IMG/VR virus record: IMGVR_UViG_3300025138_000014 | Location: 87,330-151,329 of that record | From: a virus | Direction: 5' to 3' (one strand) | Length of the DNA stretch: 64,000 bases | In this document: in pieces, positions 3,052-57,188 of the stretch | Layout: each line of letters opens with the position of its first letter | Position numbering within the stretch: position 1 is the first letter of the stretch | Notes under the pieces: generated by a model | What the model was told of the DNA's origin: nothing | What the model saw: the letters and a program-made list of their open reading frames with translations, nothing else | The model's database searches: none | Program-made: the position numbers and the translations under genes

Positions 3052-3759
3052 ATGAAACATTATATTTTTGATATTGACGGAACTTTAACTCCAAGCCGTG
3101 GCAGAATTGATCCAGAGTTTGAAACATTTTTTAAAAGTTTTATCAATAAGAATAAAGTGTCTTTAGTTACTGGGTCAGATAGACCAAAAACTTTAGAACA
3201 AATTGGTATTGAAATCTCTGATAGTGTTGATACAATGTATCAATGCTCTGGTAATCACATTTGGAAAAAAGGTAAAGAGGTATCAAGAATAGATTGGCGC
3301 TTACCACATAAAGTGGTTCAATGGCTTTTAATAACTCTTGAGAATAGCAGCTATTCAAAAAGAACCGGTGATCATCTTGAAGAAAGAGTTGGTCTTGCCA
3401 ATTTCTCCATAGTGGGAAGAAAAGCAGATGCACGTCAAAGAAAAGCATATGTAAAATATGATACTAACGTGGGGGAACGTAAGCTAATTGCTTACAGATT
3501 TAATGAAAAATTTGGTAAAAAACTTAAAGCACAGGTTGCTGGAGAAACTGGTATAGATATTATCCCACTTGGTTGTGATAAGTCTCAAATATTAAAACAG
3601 ATACCACTTGATGATACAATAATCTTTTTTGGGGATAAGACTGAACTAGGTGGCAATGACTATGAAATTGCACAAGCTGTGGATAAAAGATTAAACGGAC
3701 ACTTCCATACAGTCACTGAATGGAAACATACATATAGTATATTGAAAGAGGAAATATAA
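3052..3759 (+). CDS. HAD hydrolase, phosphomannomutase-like
   Basis: 235 aa HAD-superfamily protein. The nucleophile motif FDIDGTLT has D7 and D9, and the C-terminal FFGDKTELGGNDYE (D195 region) is the signature of eukaryotic-type phosphomannomutases and related IIB phosphatases. It may act on a sugar phosphate, which would fit the sugar-nucleotide genes nearby, but the cap domain is short and a mutase role is not proven. The TAA stop overlaps the next ATG (TAATG). Confidence 0.85.
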   Translation: MKHYIFDIDGTLTPSRGRIDPEFETFFKSFINKNKVSLVTGSDRPKTLEQIGIEISDSVDTMYQCSGNHIWKKGKEVSRIDWRLPHKVVQWLLITLENSSYSKRTGDHLEERVGLANFSIVGRKADARQRKAYVKYDTNVGERKLIAYRFNEKFGKKLKAQVAGETGIDIIPLGCDKSQILKQIPLDDTIIFFGDKTELGGNDYEIAQAVDKRLNGHFHTVTEWKHTYSILKEEI

Positions 3760-6897: not shown

Positions 6898-7734
6898 ATG
6901 AAGAACAAAGTTGCCATTCTCGGTCACGGGTATGTAGGTAAAGCAGTAGAGTACGGCTTTTCAAATAAAAAGAATAAAATCCAATTAATTGATCCACATC
7001 TTTATGATAACTGTGTTGAAGATATTGAAGATCCAACTGTATCATTTGTATGTGTACCTACACCGATGAGTAGTGATGGCAATATTGATTCTAGTATCGT
7101 CGAAGAAGTAACCGAACAATTGATGATTCGTACTTCTGGTTTAATTGTTATCAAGTCTACAGTAATACCATCAGTAGTGAAAAGATTAAGCGATAAAAAT
7201 CATAGAGTAATTTATAACCCAGAATTTTTAACTGAAAGAAATGCTCTTATTGATTTTGTTAATCCTCCAATGCACGTATTTGGCGGACACGAAAATGAGA
7301 CAGAGCAGCTACATAAATTCTATACAACTAATAGCCGTTGTAAACCTGCTCCAATTTTTAAGATGAGTGCTGCAGAAGCAGCTTTTGTAAAATACGGAAT
7401 TAATAGTTTCCTTGCAACAAAGGTACTATGGTTCAATCAATATAAGGATATGATAGATGACTTTGGAGCTGATTTTGATAACATTTCTAGCGCTATCGGT
7501 TCTGATCCCAGAATTGGCCAATCTCACACTCAAGTTCCTGGCCCTGACGGTCGTGCTGGGTTTGGCGGCGCTTGTTTCCCCAAGGATACATCAGCTCTTA
7601 TCGGATTTGATCACGGTAATATCCTCAGCGTTCTAAAATTAGTCGTGCAGGAAAACAGTGTTTATCGTAACCAGTATGAGTTAGATAGCCGAGAAAAAGA
7701 ACAGAATGTTGTTTACATTGAGTCAAATGTATAG
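6898..7734 (+). CDS. UDP-glucose/GDP-mannose dehydrogenase, short form
   Basis: 278 aa NAD-dependent enzyme expected to oxidise UDP-glucose to UDP-glucuronate. It has the Rossmann motif GHGYVG at residues 9-14, the segment STVIPS, the middle-domain ESNP-like NPEFLTE, and the catalytic GFGGACFPKD with C226. Typical family members are 390-450 aa; the C-terminal UDP-binding domain is missing here while the stop is clean. It may work as a reduced enzyme, use another subunit, or bind a different substrate. It precedes a UDP-sugar epimerase. Confidence 0.88.
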   Translation: MKNKVAILGHGYVGKAVEYGFSNKKNKIQLIDPHLYDNCVEDIEDPTVSFVCVPTPMSSDGNIDSSIVEEVTEQLMIRTSGLIVIKSTVIPSVVKRLSDKNHRVIYNPEFLTERNALIDFVNPPMHVFGGHENETEQLHKFYTTNSRCKPAPIFKMSAAEAAFVKYGINSFLATKVLWFNQYKDMIDDFGADFDNISSAIGSDPRIGQSHTQVPGPDGRAGFGGACFPKDTSALIGFDHGNILSVLKLVVQENSVYRNQYELDSREKEQNVVYIESNV

Positions 7735-7763: not shown

Positions 7764-8732
7764 ATGAAAAAACATATAATGGTAACAGGTGGTGCAGGCT
7801 TTATTGCTTACCATCTAATACAAAAACTTATTAAAGATGGCTATGAAGTATCTGCATTCGACAACTACAATGATTATTATGATCCAAAGTTGAAACATAA
7901 ACGTGCAGAGGAATTAATGTCTCTTGTTAATGTAGATGTACTTAATTGTGATCTAAAACAAGAAGAGGATCTGACTGATCTAGTTAGTGCTTACAAACCA
8001 GATGCTATTATCCATTTAGCTGCTTATGCTGGCGTAAGACATTCTTTGAGTGAACCACAAACATACATTGATAATAATATTACTGGAACACAAAATCTTA
8101 TTAATGCTTGTGAAAAAGCAGATGTTCAGCATGTAGTGTATGCTTCAACTTCTTGTACTATGGCGGGTAATGAATTACCGTGGAATGAAGATGAGAAAAC
8201 TGGTTATCAATTGAACCCATATGGCTATTCTAAATCAGCTAATGAAAACCAGATGATGTCCAGTAAAATTAAATTTACAACTGGTCTTCGGTTCTTTACT
8301 GTTTACGGACCATGGGGTCGCCCAGATATGGCTCTATTTGACTTTACTAAAGATATTATTGCAGGTACACCAATCAAGCTATTTAACTATGGCGACATGG
8401 TTCGTGATTTTACTTATGTAGATGATATTGTACAAGGCGTTGGCTTAGTTCTAAAAGATAGTTTTGATCGTGATAGTGAAGATACATTCGGCGAGATATA
8501 TAATATTGGTTACGGAGACCAAGTTAAGTTATTTGATTTTGTAACTGAGATTGAAGCTAATCTTGGTCGTGTAGCACAACGCGAGTTAGTTAAAATGCAT
8601 CCAGCCGATACACGTGAAACTTGGTCCGATACAACTAAAATTCGGAAGCTAGGTTACAATCCTACTACATCTATTGAAGATGGAGTGGCTAATTTTATAA
8701 CATGGTATAAAGGATATTATAATGTCAACTGA
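7764..8732 (+). CDS. NAD-dependent UDP-sugar epimerase (UDP-glucuronate 4-epimerase-like)
   Basis: 322 aa short-chain dehydrogenase-type epimerase. GGAGFIAYH near the N-terminus binds NAD; the catalytic Y153-x3-K157 lies in YGYSK; STSC gives the Ser/Thr partner. FDNYNDYYDPKLK after strand 2 is typical of UDP-glucuronate 4-epimerases. Together with the upstream dehydrogenase it could make UDP-galacturonate for the glycosyltransferases. The next small gene starts inside its last codons. Confidence 0.9.
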   Translation: MKKHIMVTGGAGFIAYHLIQKLIKDGYEVSAFDNYNDYYDPKLKHKRAEELMSLVNVDVLNCDLKQEEDLTDLVSAYKPDAIIHLAAYAGVRHSLSEPQTYIDNNITGTQNLINACEKADVQHVVYASTSCTMAGNELPWNEDEKTGYQLNPYGYSKSANENQMMSSKIKFTTGLRFFTVYGPWGRPDMALFDFTKDIIAGTPIKLFNYGDMVRDFTYVDDIVQGVGLVLKDSFDRDSEDTFGEIYNIGYGDQVKLFDFVTEIEANLGRVAQRELVKMHPADTRETWSDTTKIRKLGYNPTTSIEDGVANFITWYKGYYNVN

Positions 8733-8892
8733 TGCAGCAACACAACTTATGACTGAAGCCGCTAAATTTCATGGAATTACATATGCACAACTTCGGCATA
8801 GAATTACATCTGGTGGCGAAAGCCTTATGCAACCATATTATGAAAGCAAAAGCTGGAAAGATTTATATAAAGTAGCAGAACAATGCGAGTAG
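8722..8892 (+). CDS. small protein between epimerase and nucleotidyltransferase
   Basis: 56 aa (MSTDAATQLM...EQCE), soluble, unrecognised. ATG at 8722 is preceded by AAGGATA and overlaps the epimerase stop; its own stop overlaps the next gene by 10 nt. The tight coupling on both sides supports a real gene. Confidence 0.7.
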   Translation: MSTDAATQLMTEAAKFHGITYAQLRHRITSGGESLMQPYYESKSWKDLYKVAEQCE

Positions 8893-9305
8893 GTATTACA
8901 GCCTCAACCTTTGATTTGCTTCATGCTGGTCACGTTGCTATGCTTCGAGAAGCTAAAGAGCAATGTGATCACCTAATCTGTGCACTACAGATTGATCCTA
9001 CAATTGATAGAATAGAAAAGAACAAACCTATTCAAACTGTAGTTGAAAGATATACTCAGCTGGCAGCAGTAAGATATGTAGATGAAGTTATTGTATATTC
9101 TACAGAACAAGACTTACTAGATATTTTACAAATGTATCCAATTAATGTACGGATCTTAGGAGACGAATACAAGCTAAAAGAATTTACAGGAAAAAATGAA
9201 TGCCGTAAACTCGGCATTGAATTACATTTTAATAGCAGAAATCACAGGTTCTCAACATCAGATTTAAGAGAACGTGTCTGCAATGAGAGGAAAAAAACCA
9301 AATGA
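8883..9305 (+). CDS. cytidylyltransferase-like nucleotidyltransferase (TagD/RfaE-C type)
   Basis: 140 aa. HAGH at residues 14-17 and FSTSDLR near the C-terminus are the two signature motifs of small cytidylyltransferases such as glycerol-3-phosphate cytidylyltransferase or the ADP-heptose synthase C-domain. It joins a nucleotide to a small phosphorylated substrate, probably to activate a sugar or polyol for glycan synthesis. The substrate cannot be read from sequence. Confidence 0.85.
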   Translation: MRVGITASTFDLLHAGHVAMLREAKEQCDHLICALQIDPTIDRIEKNKPIQTVVERYTQLAAVRYVDEVIVYSTEQDLLDILQMYPINVRILGDEYKLKEFTGKNECRKLGIELHFNSRNHRFSTSDLRERVCNERKKTK

Positions 9306-10342
9306 GTTCCATTATGGATAAACTCCAGAAGAATACTAAGTTGAAAAATACTGAAATTTTATCTGAGTCAAAATTTTTTAATGAAAAAGATATGACTACA
9401 ACTTCTGTTCCGATGGTCAATGTGGCACTATCAGGATCAATGGACGGTGGATTATCCCCAGGACTAACAGTACTTGCTGGTCCATCTAAACACTTTAAAA
9501 CTTCCTTTGCTTTACTTATGGCAGGTGCTTATCTGGATAAACATCCGAATGCAGTAATGTTGTTTTACGACTCAGAGTTTGGTTCACCACAATCTTACTT
9601 TAAACAATTTGGTATTGATACAAAACGGGTACTTCATACACCAATTACTAATGTAGAAGAACTAAAATTTGACGTAGTAAATCAACTTGAAGGTCTTGAC
9701 CGAAAAGATGAAGTAATTATTGTTATTGACTCAATCGGTAATCTTGCTTCAAAGAAAGAACTTGAAGATGCTCAGAATGAAAAGTCTGTAGCAGATATGT
9801 CTCGTGCTAAACAGCTGAAGTCTTTGTTTAGAATGTGTACTCCATATCTTGCTATGAAAAATATTTCTATGCTAGCAGTCAATCACACTTATCAAGAAAT
9901 CGGTTTATTCCCTAAAGCAATTGTTTCTGGTGGAACTGGTATATATTATTCAGCTGATAATATTTGGATTATCGGTCGCCGCCAGAATAAAAAGGGTATG
10001 GAAGTTACTGGTTATGATTTTGTTATTAATGTTGAGAAGTCTCGGTTTGTTAAAGAGAAATCAAAGATTCCGATTACAGTATCATGGGAAGGCGGAGTAC
10101 AAACTTATTCAGGTTTGTTAGAAGTTGCAATGCAAGGTGAGTATGTAAGGAAACCAGCAAACGGTTGGTATGAACCAATTAACCCAGAAACAGGTGAAGT
10201 GTTGGCTGGCAAGGCTCGTGAAGCACAGACCCTAGAAAAAGAGTTTTGGGATCCAGTATTTGAGCAAACCAACTTTAAAGAATTTATCAAAAAACAGTTT
10301 ACAATTGGCCATAAAGCTGATATAGTATTAGAGGTAGAATAA
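9302..10342 (+). CDS. uvsX: UvsX RecA-like recombinase
   Basis: 346 aa strand-exchange ATPase for recombination-dependent replication. Walker A is GPSKHFKT at residues 60-67, the T4 UvsX variant; Walker B follows in VIIVIDSIGN. LAVNHTYQE and an SGGTGIYYSAD loop are also typical. Overlaps the previous stop by 4 nt (ATGA) and the next start by one base. Confidence 0.96.
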   Translation: MSSIMDKLQKNTKLKNTEILSESKFFNEKDMTTTSVPMVNVALSGSMDGGLSPGLTVLAGPSKHFKTSFALLMAGAYLDKHPNAVMLFYDSEFGSPQSYFKQFGIDTKRVLHTPITNVEELKFDVVNQLEGLDRKDEVIIVIDSIGNLASKKELEDAQNEKSVADMSRAKQLKSLFRMCTPYLAMKNISMLAVNHTYQEIGLFPKAIVSGGTGIYYSADNIWIIGRRQNKKGMEVTGYDFVINVEKSRFVKEKSKIPITVSWEGGVQTYSGLLEVAMQGEYVRKPANGWYEPINPETGEVLAGKAREAQTLEKEFWDPVFEQTNFKEFIKKQFTIGHKADIVLEVE

Positions 10343-16127: not shown

Positions 16128-16454
16128 ATGAGTGATTATAACTGTGACAACTGGGTCATTATCAAGATGAAAGGTGATGACCCACATTACCGACTTCTTG
16201 TCGGAACCTCAGGGGGTTACTTAGATGGCGACAGTTGGCGTATGAACAGTGGCATTACAAAGGTAGAAGAGGACGAAGCATTCTACTACTTTTATGGGTC
16301 TAGTGGGTCTCGATATCGTAGTTGTAAAGAGTCGTACACGCTGAGGATGAATAATGCTCATATCTGGGATCAGCTTCAGAAACTTCATGGCGACAAAGTT
16401 GAGATGATGCCAGAAGATACAGACTGGATAAATATGGATTGGATTATCAAATGA
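16128..16454 (+). CDS. protein of unknown function, coupled to aldolase gene
   Basis: 108 aa, soluble, Trp- and Tyr-rich, ending NMDWIIK. No motif recognised. Its TGA overlaps the aldolase ATG (ATGA), so both are made from one message. Confidence 0.75.
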   Translation: MSDYNCDNWVIIKMKGDDPHYRLLVGTSGGYLDGDSWRMNSGITKVEEDEAFYYFYGSSGSRYRSCKESYTLRMNNAHIWDQLQKLHGDKVEMMPEDTDWINMDWIIK

Positions 16455-17245
16455 AATTTATTGCTGCAATGGACCATAGTGGTGGATCAACAGGCGGAGT
16501 ACTTGATCGGTATGAACAAACATATACCGAAGAAACTAAAATGGATTTGATCCATGATATGCGAACACGAATGATTAATGCTCCAAGTTTTAACGGAGAT
16601 AATATTTGGGGAACAATTCTTTATAAAGACACAGTCCTACGTGGAGTGTCTGCTACTCTTTTGGAAAAAGAGATTGTATCATTCCTAAAAGTTGATAGTG
16701 GAGTTATCTTTAGTGGTATGCTCAAACCATTTAATCTTGGCGAAATGATTAATATTGCAAAAGAACATCGTTGTGTCGGTACAAAGATGCGAAGCATTGT
16801 TTATTCCAAAGACGTACTAGAACCAATTGTAAAAGAACAATTTGAACTAGGTCAACAGATTTTTGAAAACGGACTTATTCCTATTATTGAACCAGAAGTT
16901 CCTATAGATCATATGAATAAATCAGAACTTGAGACCATGCTAGACGCTTCATTGAAAGCACATCTTGCTAGATTTAAAGGTCAATGTATTCTAAAATTAA
17001 CTTTACCTGAAATCAATGGTCTTTATAGTGATTACTCTAATCACCCTAAAGTTGTAAAAGTTGTTGCACTTAGCGGTGGTTATAGTACAGAAGTTGCTTG
17101 TAAAAGACTATCAGAACAAAGTGCTATGGGAGCAAGTTTTAGTCGAGCACTTTCCGAAAATCTATATGCTAGTCAACGTGATGTAGATTTTAATTCATCT
17201 CTTGCTTGGAATATTAAAAGAATCAGTGAGGCTTGTTCAGTTTAA
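16451..17245 (+). CDS. class I fructose-bisphosphate aldolase
   Basis: 264 aa Schiff-base aldolase interconverting fructose-1,6-bisphosphate with DHAP and glyceraldehyde-3-phosphate. It aligns along its length with bacterial class I aldolases: FIAAMDHSGGST at the N-terminus, FLKVDSG (K80), GTKMRS, PIIEPEV, ILKLTLPE (K182 on the strand expected to carry the Schiff-base lysine), VVALSGGYS and ASFSRAL. ATG 16451 was chosen because it overlaps the upstream stop and matches the family start. Slightly shorter than the usual 290-300 aa. No zinc class II motif is present. Confidence 0.93.
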   Translation: MKFIAAMDHSGGSTGGVLDRYEQTYTEETKMDLIHDMRTRMINAPSFNGDNIWGTILYKDTVLRGVSATLLEKEIVSFLKVDSGVIFSGMLKPFNLGEMINIAKEHRCVGTKMRSIVYSKDVLEPIVKEQFELGQQIFENGLIPIIEPEVPIDHMNKSELETMLDASLKAHLARFKGQCILKLTLPEINGLYSDYSNHPKVVKVVALSGGYSTEVACKRLSEQSAMGASFSRALSENLYASQRDVDFNSSLAWNIKRISEACSV

Positions 17246-17577
17246 TGAAATATGTAATTGATATTGACGGTACTATTTGTAATGAAGTATTTAATAATAA
17301 CGGCACAAAGAATTATGCTCTACATGAGCCTGCAATGGATCGCATTGCAAAGGTAAACAAACTATATGATGCAGGGCATACTATTAAATATATGACAGCC
17401 CGAGGCGCAGTTAGTAAAGTTGATTATTATGATCTAACCAAGAAACAACTGGATAGTTGGGGTGCTAAATACCATGAGTTGAGTGTCGGAGAAAAAGAAC
17501 ATTACGATGTTTGGATTGATGACAAAGCATATTGGAGTGAAAACTTTTTTAGAAAATCTGGAGAAAGCTATGAGTAA
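17245..17577 (+). CDS. small HAD-superfamily phosphatase
   Basis: 110 aa. YVIDIDGTI gives the nucleophile pair and MTARG the second HAD motif, with DVWIDDKAY at the end. Such short HADs occur in capsule gene clusters and phages. ATG 17245 overlaps the aldolase stop (TAATG). Substrate unknown, plausibly a sugar phosphate. Confidence 0.82.
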   Translation: MKYVIDIDGTICNEVFNNNGTKNYALHEPAMDRIAKVNKLYDAGHTIKYMTARGAVSKVDYYDLTKKQLDSWGAKYHELSVGEKEHYDVWIDDKAYWSENFFRKSGESYE

Positions 17578-18597: not shown

Positions 18598-18619
18598 CAA
18601 TAATAATTCATTTTAGGGG

Positions 18620-43375: not shown

Positions 43376-44434
43376 ATGATTAAAGTTTTAACAATCGTAG
43401 CAGCAGCAATGTTAGCGACAAGCGCATGGGCTGGGGATAAAGTTAAAGTAGGTTTCATTTACGTTGGACCAACTGGAGATCATGGTTGGACTTATCGTCA
43501 TGATATCGGCCGTCAAGATGTAGAAGAACATTTTGGAGATAAAGTAGAAACTTTTTATGTTGAAAGTGTTGCAGAAGGGCCAGACGCAGAAAGAGTGATT
43601 CGTGGTATGGTTCTACAAGGCGCTGATATTATCTTTACAACTTCTTTTGGCTATATGGATGCAACAGCAAAAATGGCTAGAGAATATCCACATGTAAAAT
43701 TTGAACATGCAACTGGATATAAACAATCCGAGAATATGTCTAGTTATGCACTTCGTTTGTATCAAGCACGTCACGTTCAAGGAGTTATTGCAGGTCTTAT
43801 GACTAAATCAGATAAGATTTGTTATATCGGTGCATATCCAATCCCAGAAGTTATCCGTCATATCAACACATATTTTATGGGCGCTCGAAGTGTAAATCCT
43901 GATGTTGATATGGATGTTATTTGGGTAAACACTTGGTATAATCCTGGAAAAGAATCAGATGCAGCTAAAGTTCTAATGTCACAAGGTTGTGATATGGTTG
44001 CACAACATACTGATTCACCTGCTCCTATTCAAGCGGCTGAACAACAAGGTAGATTTGGTTTTGGCCAAGCATCGGATCAAATTAGATTTGCGCCAAAATC
44101 ACAGCTAACTGCAACTATTGATAATTGGTCTCCATACTATATTCGTAAAGTTGGAGCAGTTATTGATGGAACTTGGGAAAGTGAAAACTATTTCGGTGGA
44201 GTAGCAGGAGGTGGTGTTGTTATGGCTCCATTTACAAATATGCCGTTTGCTGTTCGTGCTAAAGCTGCTAATCTTTTACAACGGATTAGTGACGGAGAGT
44301 ATTTTGCCTTTACTGGACCCATTAAAGATCAAGCAGGTGAAATTCGTATCCCAGAAGGTCATATTGCTACAGATATGGAACTAAATACTATGGATTATTA
44401 TGTCGAAGGTATTACGGCAAAGTTTCCTCTATAA
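43376..44434 (+). CDS. BMP/PnrA-type periplasmic substrate-binding protein
   Basis: 352 aa. A Sec signal peptide (residues 1-19, cut at AWA/GD) precedes a type I periplasmic-binding fold: VGFIYVGPTGDHGWTYRHD, IIFTTSFGYMD, YALRLYQARHVQGVIAG. This is the BMP family that delivers nucleosides or related ligands to ABC importers. No lipobox, so it is soluble in the periplasm as in proteobacteria. No permease or ATPase gene is near, so it would have to serve the host transporter. A terminator ends the unit. The -35/-10 match upstream is poor. Confidence 0.93.
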   Translation: MIKVLTIVAAAMLATSAWAGDKVKVGFIYVGPTGDHGWTYRHDIGRQDVEEHFGDKVETFYVESVAEGPDAERVIRGMVLQGADIIFTTSFGYMDATAKMAREYPHVKFEHATGYKQSENMSSYALRLYQARHVQGVIAGLMTKSDKICYIGAYPIPEVIRHINTYFMGARSVNPDVDMDVIWVNTWYNPGKESDAAKVLMSQGCDMVAQHTDSPAPIQAAEQQGRFGFGQASDQIRFAPKSQLTATIDNWSPYYIRKVGAVIDGTWESENYFGGVAGGGVVMAPFTNMPFAVRAKAANLLQRISDGEYFAFTGPIKDQAGEIRIPEGHIATDMELNTMDYYVEGITAKFPL

Positions 44435-52070: not shown

Positions 52071-52079
52071 CATTAGGTG

Positions 52080-52108
52080 TTTACATACCCTGACAGTTTA
52101 GATATAGT
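52080..52108 (+). promoter_or_regulatory. sigma70-type promoter with TTAGGTG element
   Basis: TTTACA 52080-52085, 17-nt spacer, TATAGT 52103-52108, ATTAGGTG before the -35. Confidence 0.86.
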
Positions 52109-52140: not shown

Positions 52141-52392
52141 ATGGCATATTGGACTCACGCAGAAAATCAAGTCGGTGTATTTACCGAGTGCGAAACTGGT
52201 AACCACTTCGAGTTTAGCCCGAACAACGACGGCAATTTCTTCGGTAATGACTTTGCTCATATCGTATGGGTTCTCAACGGTTACCGATATGCCAACGTAA
52301 AGAAAACAGTTCTTGAAATCTGCATCGACGAAGATGAGGATGGTCCAGTTGTACAAAAGTGGCATATAAGGAATAAAAGAGATTATAAATGA
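52141..52392 (+). CDS. small conserved protein, unknown
   Basis: 83 aa, acidic, Asn/Phe-rich first half; AGGAGACC ribosome site. Its stop overlaps the PEP carboxykinase start (ATGA), so the two share one message. Confidence 0.75.
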   Translation: MAYWTHAENQVGVFTECETGNHFEFSPNNDGNFFGNDFAHIVWVLNGYRYANVKKTVLEICIDEDEDGPVVQKWHIRNKRDYK

Positions 52393-53591
52393 ATATTAGT
52401 ATTACCACCCATCCCACAGGCAGAAGTCCAGAAAACAAATGGTTCTTTGGAGAACGGACTTCAGCTTTGGACCTTACTCGTCCAAAGTATAATAAGATAG
52501 GCAGAGAACAAGACTTTCAATGGTTCTATGCGCAAATGCAAGATGTAGATTACGAACATAATCTTGTGTTCTATACTTGTGGGAAGTGTTTTAGAGTAGA
52601 AACAACTGACGTCAGGCATGCACAGTTCGTGCGCAATATGTTTACTGTAGTTGATAATCCACATGATCATTGTGCTGACTGGGTGATATTTCATAGCCCT
52701 ACATCATCGACAGAGCCTAAGATATATGTACACTTAGATGATCACGTAATGCTTATTGCAGGTACAACATTCCTAGGCGAGATTAAAAAGGGCGTGTTTG
52801 GTATTCTAAGTTTTGAACTACCTACACTAGACGCACTGCCTATGCACTGTAGTGCATTTACATATCAACATAATGGCGGCCCTAAAACCAATCTAATGTT
52901 TGGACTTAGCGGCACAGGCAAGACTACACTAAGTAGTGATCCAGAGTATAGGCTTATCAGCGATGATGAAGTTGCTTGGACGTCGGATAGTGTACAGATG
53001 ATTGAAACGGGATGTTATGCAAAGAGTGAAGGACTTAGTGTAGAGACACATCCTACTATTTTTAATGCGGTTGAGTTGGCCAGAAGCCAAGATAGATTAG
53101 TTGAAGAGAATCCTGGTGCTTCTAATGCTAGATTAAGTTATCCACTGAGTACAGTTGAAAATGCATATGATTATGATGATAACCTAAGACACCCTCATAA
53201 CATTTTCTTTCTCACGATGGACGCTAAAGGTTTATTTCCACCAGTGAGTAAAATTACTGGAGAAACCATAAAGCGGTTCTTTGAAACGGGCTACACTAGC
53301 CAGATGCCGGGTACTGAAGCAGGTGATAATCAGATTAAACCACTGTTCAGTCCATGCTATGGCTCTCCATTTATGCCTCTTGACATAAGTGTTTATAGTG
53401 ATATGCTTATGGAGATGATTAGAATACATAAAGTAAATGTTTACTTAATAAACACAGGTATGGATAGTGATGGAGTGCGTTATTCACTAGACTTTACCAG
53501 GGAATGTGTTAAACTAGCAATACAGAAAGGCGCACCTGATAATAGTGATGTCTGCTTAAACATATTAGAGGAACTGATCAATGGATCTTAA
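52389..53591 (+). CDS. pckA: ATP-type PEP carboxykinase-like enzyme
   Basis: 400 aa, homologous along its length to ATP-dependent PEP carboxykinase, which converts oxaloacetate and ATP to phosphoenolpyruvate. Landmarks: TGRSP (R12), LIAGTTFLGEIKKGVF (K133/K134), LPMHCSA (H153), Walker A GLSGTGKT at 172-179, ISDDE (D192/D193) where the family has GDDEHGW, GCYAK, and NARLSYP (R248 at the position of the nucleotide-contact Arg). Cellular enzymes have about 530 aa; this one is shorter at the N-terminus and in loops but keeps the active-site set. GDDEHGW is changed to SDDEVAW, so altered substrate use is possible. Confidence 0.92.
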   Translation: MNISITTHPTGRSPENKWFFGERTSALDLTRPKYNKIGREQDFQWFYAQMQDVDYEHNLVFYTCGKCFRVETTDVRHAQFVRNMFTVVDNPHDHCADWVIFHSPTSSTEPKIYVHLDDHVMLIAGTTFLGEIKKGVFGILSFELPTLDALPMHCSAFTYQHNGGPKTNLMFGLSGTGKTTLSSDPEYRLISDDEVAWTSDSVQMIETGCYAKSEGLSVETHPTIFNAVELARSQDRLVEENPGASNARLSYPLSTVENAYDYDDNLRHPHNIFFLTMDAKGLFPPVSKITGETIKRFFETGYTSQMPGTEAGDNQIKPLFSPCYGSPFMPLDISVYSDMLMEMIRIHKVNVYLINTGMDSDGVRYSLDFTRECVKLAIQKGAPDNSDVCLNILEELINGS

Positions 53592-53796
53592 TATCGCACT
53601 TGGAAACCTAGTAGAAATTGTAGTTTTAATTACTGTCTTTGGAATATTCGGCATAGTATTTGCGGAAATGATGTCACTAGCAGATAAATCAACTAGGTAT
53701 GAATATGAAGATGAAGATGATGATCTGTTTGAAGACGACGAGTTTACCGAAATGGATCAAGAAGATGAAGATGAATTAAAAATGCATTTTAATTGA
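53581..53796 (+). CDS. membrane protein with acidic tail
   Basis: 71 aa: one membrane helix (about residues 10-32) and a long Asp/Glu tail, similar in layout to the protein at 37401. Overlaps the PEP carboxykinase gene by 11 nt. Confidence 0.72.
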   Translation: MDLNIALGNLVEIVVLITVFGIFGIVFAEMMSLADKSTRYEYEDEDDDLFEDDEFTEMDQEDEDELKMHFN

Positions 53797-53805
53797 AATT
53801 AGGGG

Positions 53806-53834
53806 TTTACATACTATATTGGACAAGTTATAGT
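53806..53834 (+). promoter_or_regulatory. sigma70-type promoter with TTAGGGG element
   Basis: TTTACA 53806-53811, 17-nt spacer, TATAGT 53829-53834. Confidence 0.86.
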
Positions 53835-55215: not shown

Positions 55216-55292
55216 GGTTCCTTAGCTCAGCAGGATAGAGCAAGTGCCTTCTAAGCACTAGGTCAGAGGTTCGAATCCTCTAGGGACTACCA
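55216..55292 (+). tRNA. tRNA-Arg (anticodon UCU)
   Basis: 77 nt with encoded CCA. Acceptor GGTTCCT/AGGGACT (two GU pairs), D arm GCTC/GAGC, anticodon stem AGTGC/GCACT with loop CTTCTAA (anticodon TCT), T arm AGAGG/CCTCT with loop TTCGAAT. Reads AGA codons, which suits an AT-rich phage in a host that may use AGA rarely. Confidence 0.96.
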
Positions 55293-56247: not shown

Positions 56248-56460
56248 ATGGCTTGGGTAAACATTACTAATAATACTGGATACCAATACAATAACGCACC
56301 AACAGAACCAGGAGCCACTACGGCTGCTCATAAACTTTGGTCACTAGGAACATCTGGTATCCGTACAAACGGTAGTAGTAAGGTTTATACAAACGTGCGT
56401 AAAGCTGGGACAACAAAAGATATTGGTGAAATGAGCAAAACCTTTTGGGATAACGGCTAA
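56248..56460 (+). CDS. small late protein (MAWVN family)
   Basis: 70 aa; MAWVNITNNTGYQY and the end MSKTFWDNG match short proteins in T4-like cyanophages, probably virion-associated. Ends two nt before the tmRNA acceptor piece. Confidence 0.75.
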   Translation: MAWVNITNNTGYQYNNAPTEPGATTAAHKLWSLGTSGIRTNGSSKVYTNVRKAGTTKDIGEMSKTFWDNG

Positions 56461-56461
56461 A

Positions 56462-56764
56462 TAAGACTGTAACGTTGAAGCGATTTGACGACTGAACTGG
56501 ACCTGGGGGCGGTACCCAGCAGCTCCACCATAAGGGCACCAAGATCAGCTTGGTACTCGATGCATAGAGAACGCCTCCACTGGTGTCCTTTTGATGGGGC
56601 TGAAATAGGATCGACAGGCAGGATAGATGAGTGGAGTTACCCCGATGTAAGCTGGGTGAACGCGAACAAAACTACAAGTGCAAACACTAACAGTGCACCT
56701 TCTGATTACGCCCTAGCGGCCTAATTAAGGGGGTTGGTGACTTACCTAGCAACAGAAAAGTCAC
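56462..56764 (+). ncRNA. ssrA: circularly permuted two-piece tmRNA
   Basis: Trans-translation RNA that rescues stalled ribosomes and tags their products. The acceptor piece comes first: T arm CTGGG/CCCAG with loop GGCGGTA (56503-56519), acceptor strand CAGCTCC, A, CCA ending 56530. A roughly 65-nt intervening loop follows, in which AAGGGCACCA pairs with TGGTGTCCTT. Then the coding piece begins GGGGCTG at 56596, pairing with all seven acceptor bases, and continues AAATAGGATCGAC. The tag frame from GCA at 56680 reads ANTNSAPSDYALAA, stop 56722-56724, followed by a GTGACTT/AAGTCAC hairpin. This permuted layout and T loop are those of alphaproteobacteria. Outer ends are approximate. Confidence 0.95.
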
Positions 56765-56783
56765 GCTAATAACGGAGATAAAG

Positions 56784-57188
56784 ATGCTATCATTTAAGAA
56801 CTATCTGGCTGAAGATACAAGCTGTGATCTAATAGGTCTACAGAAGATTAAGGCTTTTGAGAAGTTTGTCGATAAGATGTTTAAGAGGTATGATATTGAC
56901 TTCAACTTCACGAGACATTTTGGAGACCGTATGAGTGATAAGAGGAACACACCTTGTATCACCATGAAAGAGTTAGCCAATTTTATCCAAAAGATATATA
57001 AGAATGCAGGCAAATCACTCAAAGCTGAGAAGGGTGCCGAAGCAGTTATTAAAGATATGCAGTCAGACTTAAACATACCTATTGCGGTTAAATACGATCA
57101 ACGTAAAGATGAGTTTGATGTAGTAATGAAAACAATAATGCGTAAGAAGAATTTTAAAACCCCTAACAAATTAATTACTTACAAATAA
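56784..57188 (+). CDS. conserved phage protein with capsid-targeting-like N-terminus
   Basis: 134 aa. MLSFKNYLAEDT fits the T4 capsid-targeting pattern with an LAE cut site. The body (FEKFVDKMFKRYDIDFNF and AEAVIKDMQSDLN) matches a family conserved in cyanophages. AACGGAG ribosome site just after the tmRNA. Confidence 0.8.
   Translation: MLSFKNYLAEDTSCDLIGLQKIKAFEKFVDKMFKRYDIDFNFTRHFGDRMSDKRNTPCITMKELANFIQKIYKNAGKSLKAEKGAEAVIKDMQSDLNIPIAVKYDQRKDEFDVVMKTIMRKKNFKTPNKLITYK

Follow-up and report, generated by a model that had tools for sequence, protein, structure and literature searches.

Marine T4-like phages carry a real and widespread family of compact PEP carboxykinases (PEPCKs), and PEPCK is a recurrent gene of these phages, which was not visible from a single contig. 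The member described here lies in a 64-kb window, the whole stretch of DNA that was analysed, comprising bases 87330-151329 of a 151,329-base IMG/VR record. Judging from its sequence, predicted fold and gene context, we consider it likely that this gene encodes a compact ATP-dependent PEPCK of a marine T4-like phage, one that would most likely convert oxaloacetate to PEP.

52389-53591, + strand: ORF of 400 aa, ATP-PEPCK homologue

Compared with the Pfam profile PF01293 (PEPCK_ATP), the translated ORF scored 300.2 bits (E=3.2e-89) against a gathering cut-off of 26.5 and covered profile positions 34-438 of 465. The earlier note had read the ORF as a 400-aa PEPCK homologue, and this reading is borne out far beyond chance. 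With the pckA equivalog TIGR00224 the score was 247.5 bits, below the curated cut-off of 590, partly because the protein is shorter; it is a relative of the curated equivalog but lies outside it. None of the PHROG families fits the ORF. An AlphaFold2 model of the 400 residues (pLDDT 89.8) matched the ATP-PEPCK fold, aligning with 374 residues of T. thermophilus PEPCK (1j3b; 35% identity, Z 38.8, rmsd 2.0). Z-scores were 34-39 against ATP-PEPCK structures and about 27 against GTP-PEPCK. Residue-by-residue alignment of the contig PEPCK with E. coli PDB chains, from which the E. coli numbering was counted, gave the following correspondence (E. coli = contig):

R65=R12, Y207=F128, K212/K213=K133/K134, H232=H153, S250/K254/T255=S174/K178/T179
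D268/D269=D192/D193, K288=K212, E297=H221, R333=R248, R449=R364, T455=T370

The P-loop GLSGTGKTT occupies residues 172-180, and the kinase-2 DD is present. Each of the residues listed earlier as kept (R12, K133/K134, H153, the P-loop, D192/D193 and R248) is there, and the family motif GDDEHGW does read SDDEVAW.

The contig is that of a T4-like myovirus. It has T4-like PHROG matches to DNA polymerase gp43, UvsX, helicase, clamp loader gp44 and gp46, as well as to the major head protein gp23, the tail sheath and terminase. With these core genes on the contig, cellular contamination was rejected as the source of PEPCK; it is also contradicted by the relatives, in many of which PEPCK adjoins the gp43 polymerase or a gp46-like gene. 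The window also holds a tRNA-Arg (55216-55292), a predicted tmRNA gene (56438-56815, tag ANTNSAPSDYALAA; ARAGORN, with an asterisk flag) and a gene for a Bmp/PnrA-like ABC transporter substrate-binding protein (43376-44434; PF02608, E=1e-47), relatives of which occur near PEPCK in L054, L056 and L068.

Within the window, PEPCK is flanked by two small ORFs and two promoter-like elements.

52073-52108, + strand: promoter-like element TTAGGTGTTTACA-N17-TATAGT, immediately before the PEPCK unit, a consensus match only
52141-52392, + strand: 83-aa ORF, phrog_23785, whose stop overlaps the PEPCK start (ATGA)
53581-53796, + strand: 71-aa ORF overlapping the PEPCK end
53799-53832, + strand: next promoter-like copy, just past the PEPCK unit

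The ATGA overlap suggests translational coupling of the 83-aa ORF and PEPCK, and the 71-aa ORF is probably the last gene of the unit. The -35 part of the element, TTAGGNGTTTACA, occurs ten times in the window when one mismatch is allowed (at 18613, 32431, 34600, 37156, 52073, 53799, 59801, 61024, 61901 and 62218), always on the + strand, compared with 0.47 copies expected. Most copies have a TATA about 17 bases downstream, and the rest of the contig holds more of them. This arrangement suggests that the genes between the copies at 52073 and 53799 form one short transcription unit. A 'leader' peptide seemingly shared by the regions upstream of PEPCK, upstream of aldolase and at window position 17483 was rejected, since it seems to be the 3' part of the HAD-like gene just before it, translated in a different frame.

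A protein scan of IMG/VR found at least 70 compact PEPCK loci with 59-100% identity to the contig PEPCK, and with a wider alignment probe 172 were confirmed; the 80 best of these were retained. The majority of the loci are uninterrupted ORFs of 394-442 aa. Their median dN/dS is 0.17, with a maximum of 0.31 (164 pairs), and the compact PEPCK is under purifying selection. Phylogeny placed the family beside ATP-PEPCK on a very long stem, in a tree built from PEPCK and PEPCK-like sequences. A divergent PEPCK-like group, mostly from Clostridia (L126-L158), is about 26% identical to the phage family.

Residue statistics were compiled for 77 aligned compact members and 60 canonical sequences. Equivalents of R65, K212, K213, H232, S250, K254, T255, D268, D269, K288, R333, R449 and T455 are invariant in all 77 compact members. 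These include the oxaloacetate-binding arginines R65 and R333 (R12 and R248), the adenine-site residues K288, R449 and T455 (K212, R364 and T370), and the metal site K213, H232, T255 and D269 (K134, H153, T179 and D193); a loss of the manganese site was looked for and none was seen. The family resembles cellular ATP-PEPCK (PckA; T. thermophilus 1j3b, E. coli 1aq2/2pxz) in fold, metal site, P-loop, oxaloacetate arginines and most adenine contacts. It differs in being about 130 residues shorter (about 400 versus 530-540), with several short loops absent and roughly 40 alignment columns missing at the N-terminus and 50 at the C-terminus, and in the changes Y207F, E297H, I290E, H271V/I and G283T.

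Glu297, found in all 60 canonical sequences, is His in every compact member (77/77). Tyr207, near the substrate/CO2 site, is Phe in 75 of the 77; it is Tyr in 59 canonical sequences, the sixtieth having an unread X. At the His271 equivalent (position 195), all 77 compact members have Val or Ile, and five of the 60 canonical sequences also lack the His. The canonical GDDEHGW is thus replaced by [S/G]DDE[V/I]xW throughout the family, and the altered motif that had been singled out in the contig PEPCK is a family trait, not a peculiarity of this protein. The loss of this His is probably not what matters most for function in the compact enzyme; Y207F and E297H are the active-site changes of greater interest. 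Phe at 207 is not by itself a bar to substrate binding, since the PDB contains an E. coli Y207F mutant with oxaloacetate bound (6at3). We found no reports on Tyr207 mutants in the open-access literature.

Compact PEPCK also occurs in bacteria. Five alphaproteobacterial single-cell genomes (one of them titled a MAG) encode a copy that is 61-62% identical to that of the window. No second PF01293 match was found in these five genomes, although this is not proof of absence because single-cell genomes are incomplete. The flanks are chromosomal, in the order ETF-like subunits, 3-hydroxyacyl-CoA dehydrogenase-like, RapZ, HprK, PEPCK and acyl-CoA dehydrogenase; the identities of RapZ, HprK and acyl-CoA dehydrogenase were checked, and the other two labels were given by eye. 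Canonical pckA lies beside HprK and RapZ in ten of ten relatives, selected among genomes with canonical pckA and not at random, and in eight of them pckA is flanked on its opposite side by an acyl-CoA dehydrogenase homologue. Four other relatives have canonical pckA in a different neighbourhood. Two further compact matches come from MAGs (L079 and L084) and resemble phage contigs that were binned with bacteria. The L079 contig (335 kb, binned as Marinimicrobia) is probably a large phage, with PEPCK neighbours in common with the viral contig L071; near its PEPCK lies a gene that by eye is 5-aminolevulinate synthase-like (8820-10013).

In a denser tree, the bacterial copies fell inside a 100/100 clade with the phage contigs L364, L350, L369 and L368, as sister to L368 (96/90), a sequence that shares 81% identity with the bacterial copy L080. 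These four contigs carry phage genes or genes common with phage contigs, including gp43 in L368. A compact PEPCK nested in a phage clade and sitting at the pckA locus suggests a phage-to-bacterium replacement. The converse course of descent, whatever the function, is that compact PEPCK arose in bacteria and was taken up by phages. An AU test is compatible with it, for a single clade of all phage sequences was not rejected (p 0.40 and 0.39 for two trees), probably because the canonical outgroup is very distant and the root weakly placed. Against it stands, besides the nesting, the number of canonical states retained out of 157, which is lower in the bacterial copies (86-87) than in L368 (91) or in L052, L057 and L059 (95); in addition, all of the longer compact forms seen (416-442 aa) came from phages. 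Retained states and longer forms favor transfer from phage to bacterium, which we think fairly likely; uptake from the host is the less likely alternative.

Gene neighbors of PEPCK vary among the viral records, and certain enzymes recur. Aldolase is found in 22 and GAPDH in 12 of 44 records, counting only those that bear PEPCK, many of which are fragments; about half of these records show no aldolase. Conversely, when 80 phage aldolase loci were examined, PEPCK was within reach in 15, and both PEPCK and GAPDH in eight. In related phages, PEPCK belongs to near-overlapping gene strings, some of these loci being near-copies of each other:

L003-L005: ALD-GAPDH-PEPCK
L009, L010 and L060: Prs-GAPDH-PEPCK
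L033/L354: GAPDH-ALD-KdsA-PEPCK
L379 and L256: KdsA-PEPCK-KdsB
L371/L372/L375: KdsA-KdsB-PEPCK
L362/L366: PEPCK-KdsA

KdsA exceeded the NCBIfam equivalog cut-offs NF003543 and TIGR01362, while KdsB remained below its own; GAPDH exceeded that of TIGR01534 and keeps SCTTN. Among the neighbors, Pfam confirmed the identities of Prs, GAPDH, MetK and an AIR-synthase-related protein. The last of these (PurM-like; L052 4973-5824) lies directly upstream of PEPCK on a viral contig and fits a nucleotide theme. A phage contig has an array of several radical-SAM-looking genes, noticed at L074 (8857-19791, contig about 48.9-59.8 kb) and L073 (9116-18089), with CxxxCxxC-like motifs by eye.

Candidate partners of PEPCK in the window itself lie at a distance from it.

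3052-3759, + strand: eukaryotic-type phosphomannomutase-family HAD protein
6898-7734, + strand: UDP-glucose/GDP-mannose dehydrogenase-family protein
7764-8732, + strand: NAD-dependent epimerase
16439-17245, + strand: class I fructose-bisphosphate aldolase homologue (NF003784 E=1e-74, below the curated cut-off)
17233-17577, + strand: small HAD-like ORF adjoining aldolase, labeled by eye since it has no Pfam match

The earlier note had placed PEPCK upstream of the phage aldolase, with TCA carbon drawn into PEP. Gene context supports this in pathway terms, but on the DNA it is the aldolase that lies upstream, 35 kb from PEPCK; the two adjoin only in related phages. Despite this distance, the aldolase is a probable partner of PEPCK in the same pathway. 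The small HAD-like ORF recurs beside phage aldolase, at 56 of 80 loci, and also beside PEPCK, and the phosphomannomutase-family protein adjoins PEPCK in other phages. The dehydrogenase and the epimerase are possible users of sugar phosphates. GAPDH, KdsA and KdsB were not found in the contig, which may be incomplete, and the pathway here would therefore rely on host enzymes.

We propose that in the infected cell host oxaloacetate and ATP would yield PEP, CO2 and ADP. Part of the PEP would be spent by KdsA (KDO-8-phosphate synthase), host-encoded here if there is no phage copy, and another part would go up by way of GAPDH and aldolase to form the hexose and pentose phosphates needed for sugar nucleotides and PRPP. 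The hosts would be marine Alphaproteobacteria living on TCA intermediates. In a subset of phages the nearest partner of PEPCK is KdsA, and since KdsA uses PEP, a PEP source beside it is coherent. The changes fixed across the family near the substrate and nucleotide sites (Y207F, E297H, I290E, H271V), together with the long stem that separates it from cellular PEPCK, could instead mark a PEPCK-fold kinase shifted to another substrate or nucleotide. We consider such a new specificity unlikely, given that both oxaloacetate arginines and every metal and phosphate residue are invariant, that the compact gene stands at the pckA locus of bacteria in which no other PEPCK was found, and that the PEP user KdsA is among the neighbors. 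The profile match, the predicted fold, catalytic residues that never vary and the gene's place at the pckA locus of five bacteria all point to a PEPCK-like enzyme. Also improbable is a PEPCK run in reverse, from PEP, CO2 and ADP to oxaloacetate and ATP, to refill the TCA cycle or make ATP: the reaction is reversible in principle and hosts may lack TCA intermediates during infection, but the neighbors are PEP-consuming (KdsA) or, in context, sugar-forming (aldolase, GAPDH, PRPP synthetase, the UDP-glucose dehydrogenase family), and Phe at 207 would presumably weaken the carboxylating direction, an effect that we extrapolate from the equivalent Tyr of GTP-PEPCK.

A survey of 50,697 phage records yielded a single plausible phage PEPCK, that of the 636-kb uncultured phage LR756504 (L077 7854-9428). 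It is likewise phage-encoded, among structural-looking genes, but is full-length (524 aa), has GDDEHGW and grouped with cellular sequences in the tree. A Staphylococcus UPMK_1 match was checked and set aside as bacterial DNA, and Salmonella and Escherichia matches were judged bacterial by annotation. In BFVD the only strong structural matches were the PEPCKs of giant viruses (Catovirus, Klosneuvirus), which are also viral but belong to eukaryotic viruses, are 30% identical and are longer (480 aa in Catovirus). A study of trench sediments (PMC12448302) gives pckA and ALDO among viral auxiliary metabolic genes; it treats them at gene-list level, and no architecture, operon or host-replacement analysis was seen in it. 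Other reports describe pps/ppsA as gluconeogenic viral genes (PMC10653327) and aceBA in a T4-like viral genome (PMC5332604). Pelagimyophages, which are T4-like and marine, carry the LPS-related genes rfaE, UDP-glucose dehydrogenase and glycosyltransferases, whereas the main text of that survey contains no PEPCK, aldolase, glyceraldehyde or KDO terms (PMC7029224). No earlier account of the compact PEPCKs, of their operons or of the bacterial replacement was found in the open-licence literature; one may exist elsewhere.

PEPCK stands at the branch point between the TCA cycle and gluconeogenesis. Taken together, gene context and conserved residues suggest that the compact PEPCK is most likely an active enzyme that turns oxaloacetate into PEP and feeds sugar, KDO and nucleotide synthesis. 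A widespread phage PEPCK with PEP-consuming neighbors would mean that marine phages draw host TCA carbon into sugars, KDO and nucleotides, and the family offers a natural 400-residue PEPCK design that can be put to the test. We would give an even chance to the fuller proposal that a phage-evolved compact PEPCK replaced pckA in place in a lineage of marine Alphaproteobacteria and, in phages, supplies PEP to a transportable gluconeogenesis-KDO-PRPP module. Should the bacterial copies derive from phages, a viral gene would have assumed a core step in the metabolism of its host, and a central carbon enzyme of free-living bacteria would be of viral descent.
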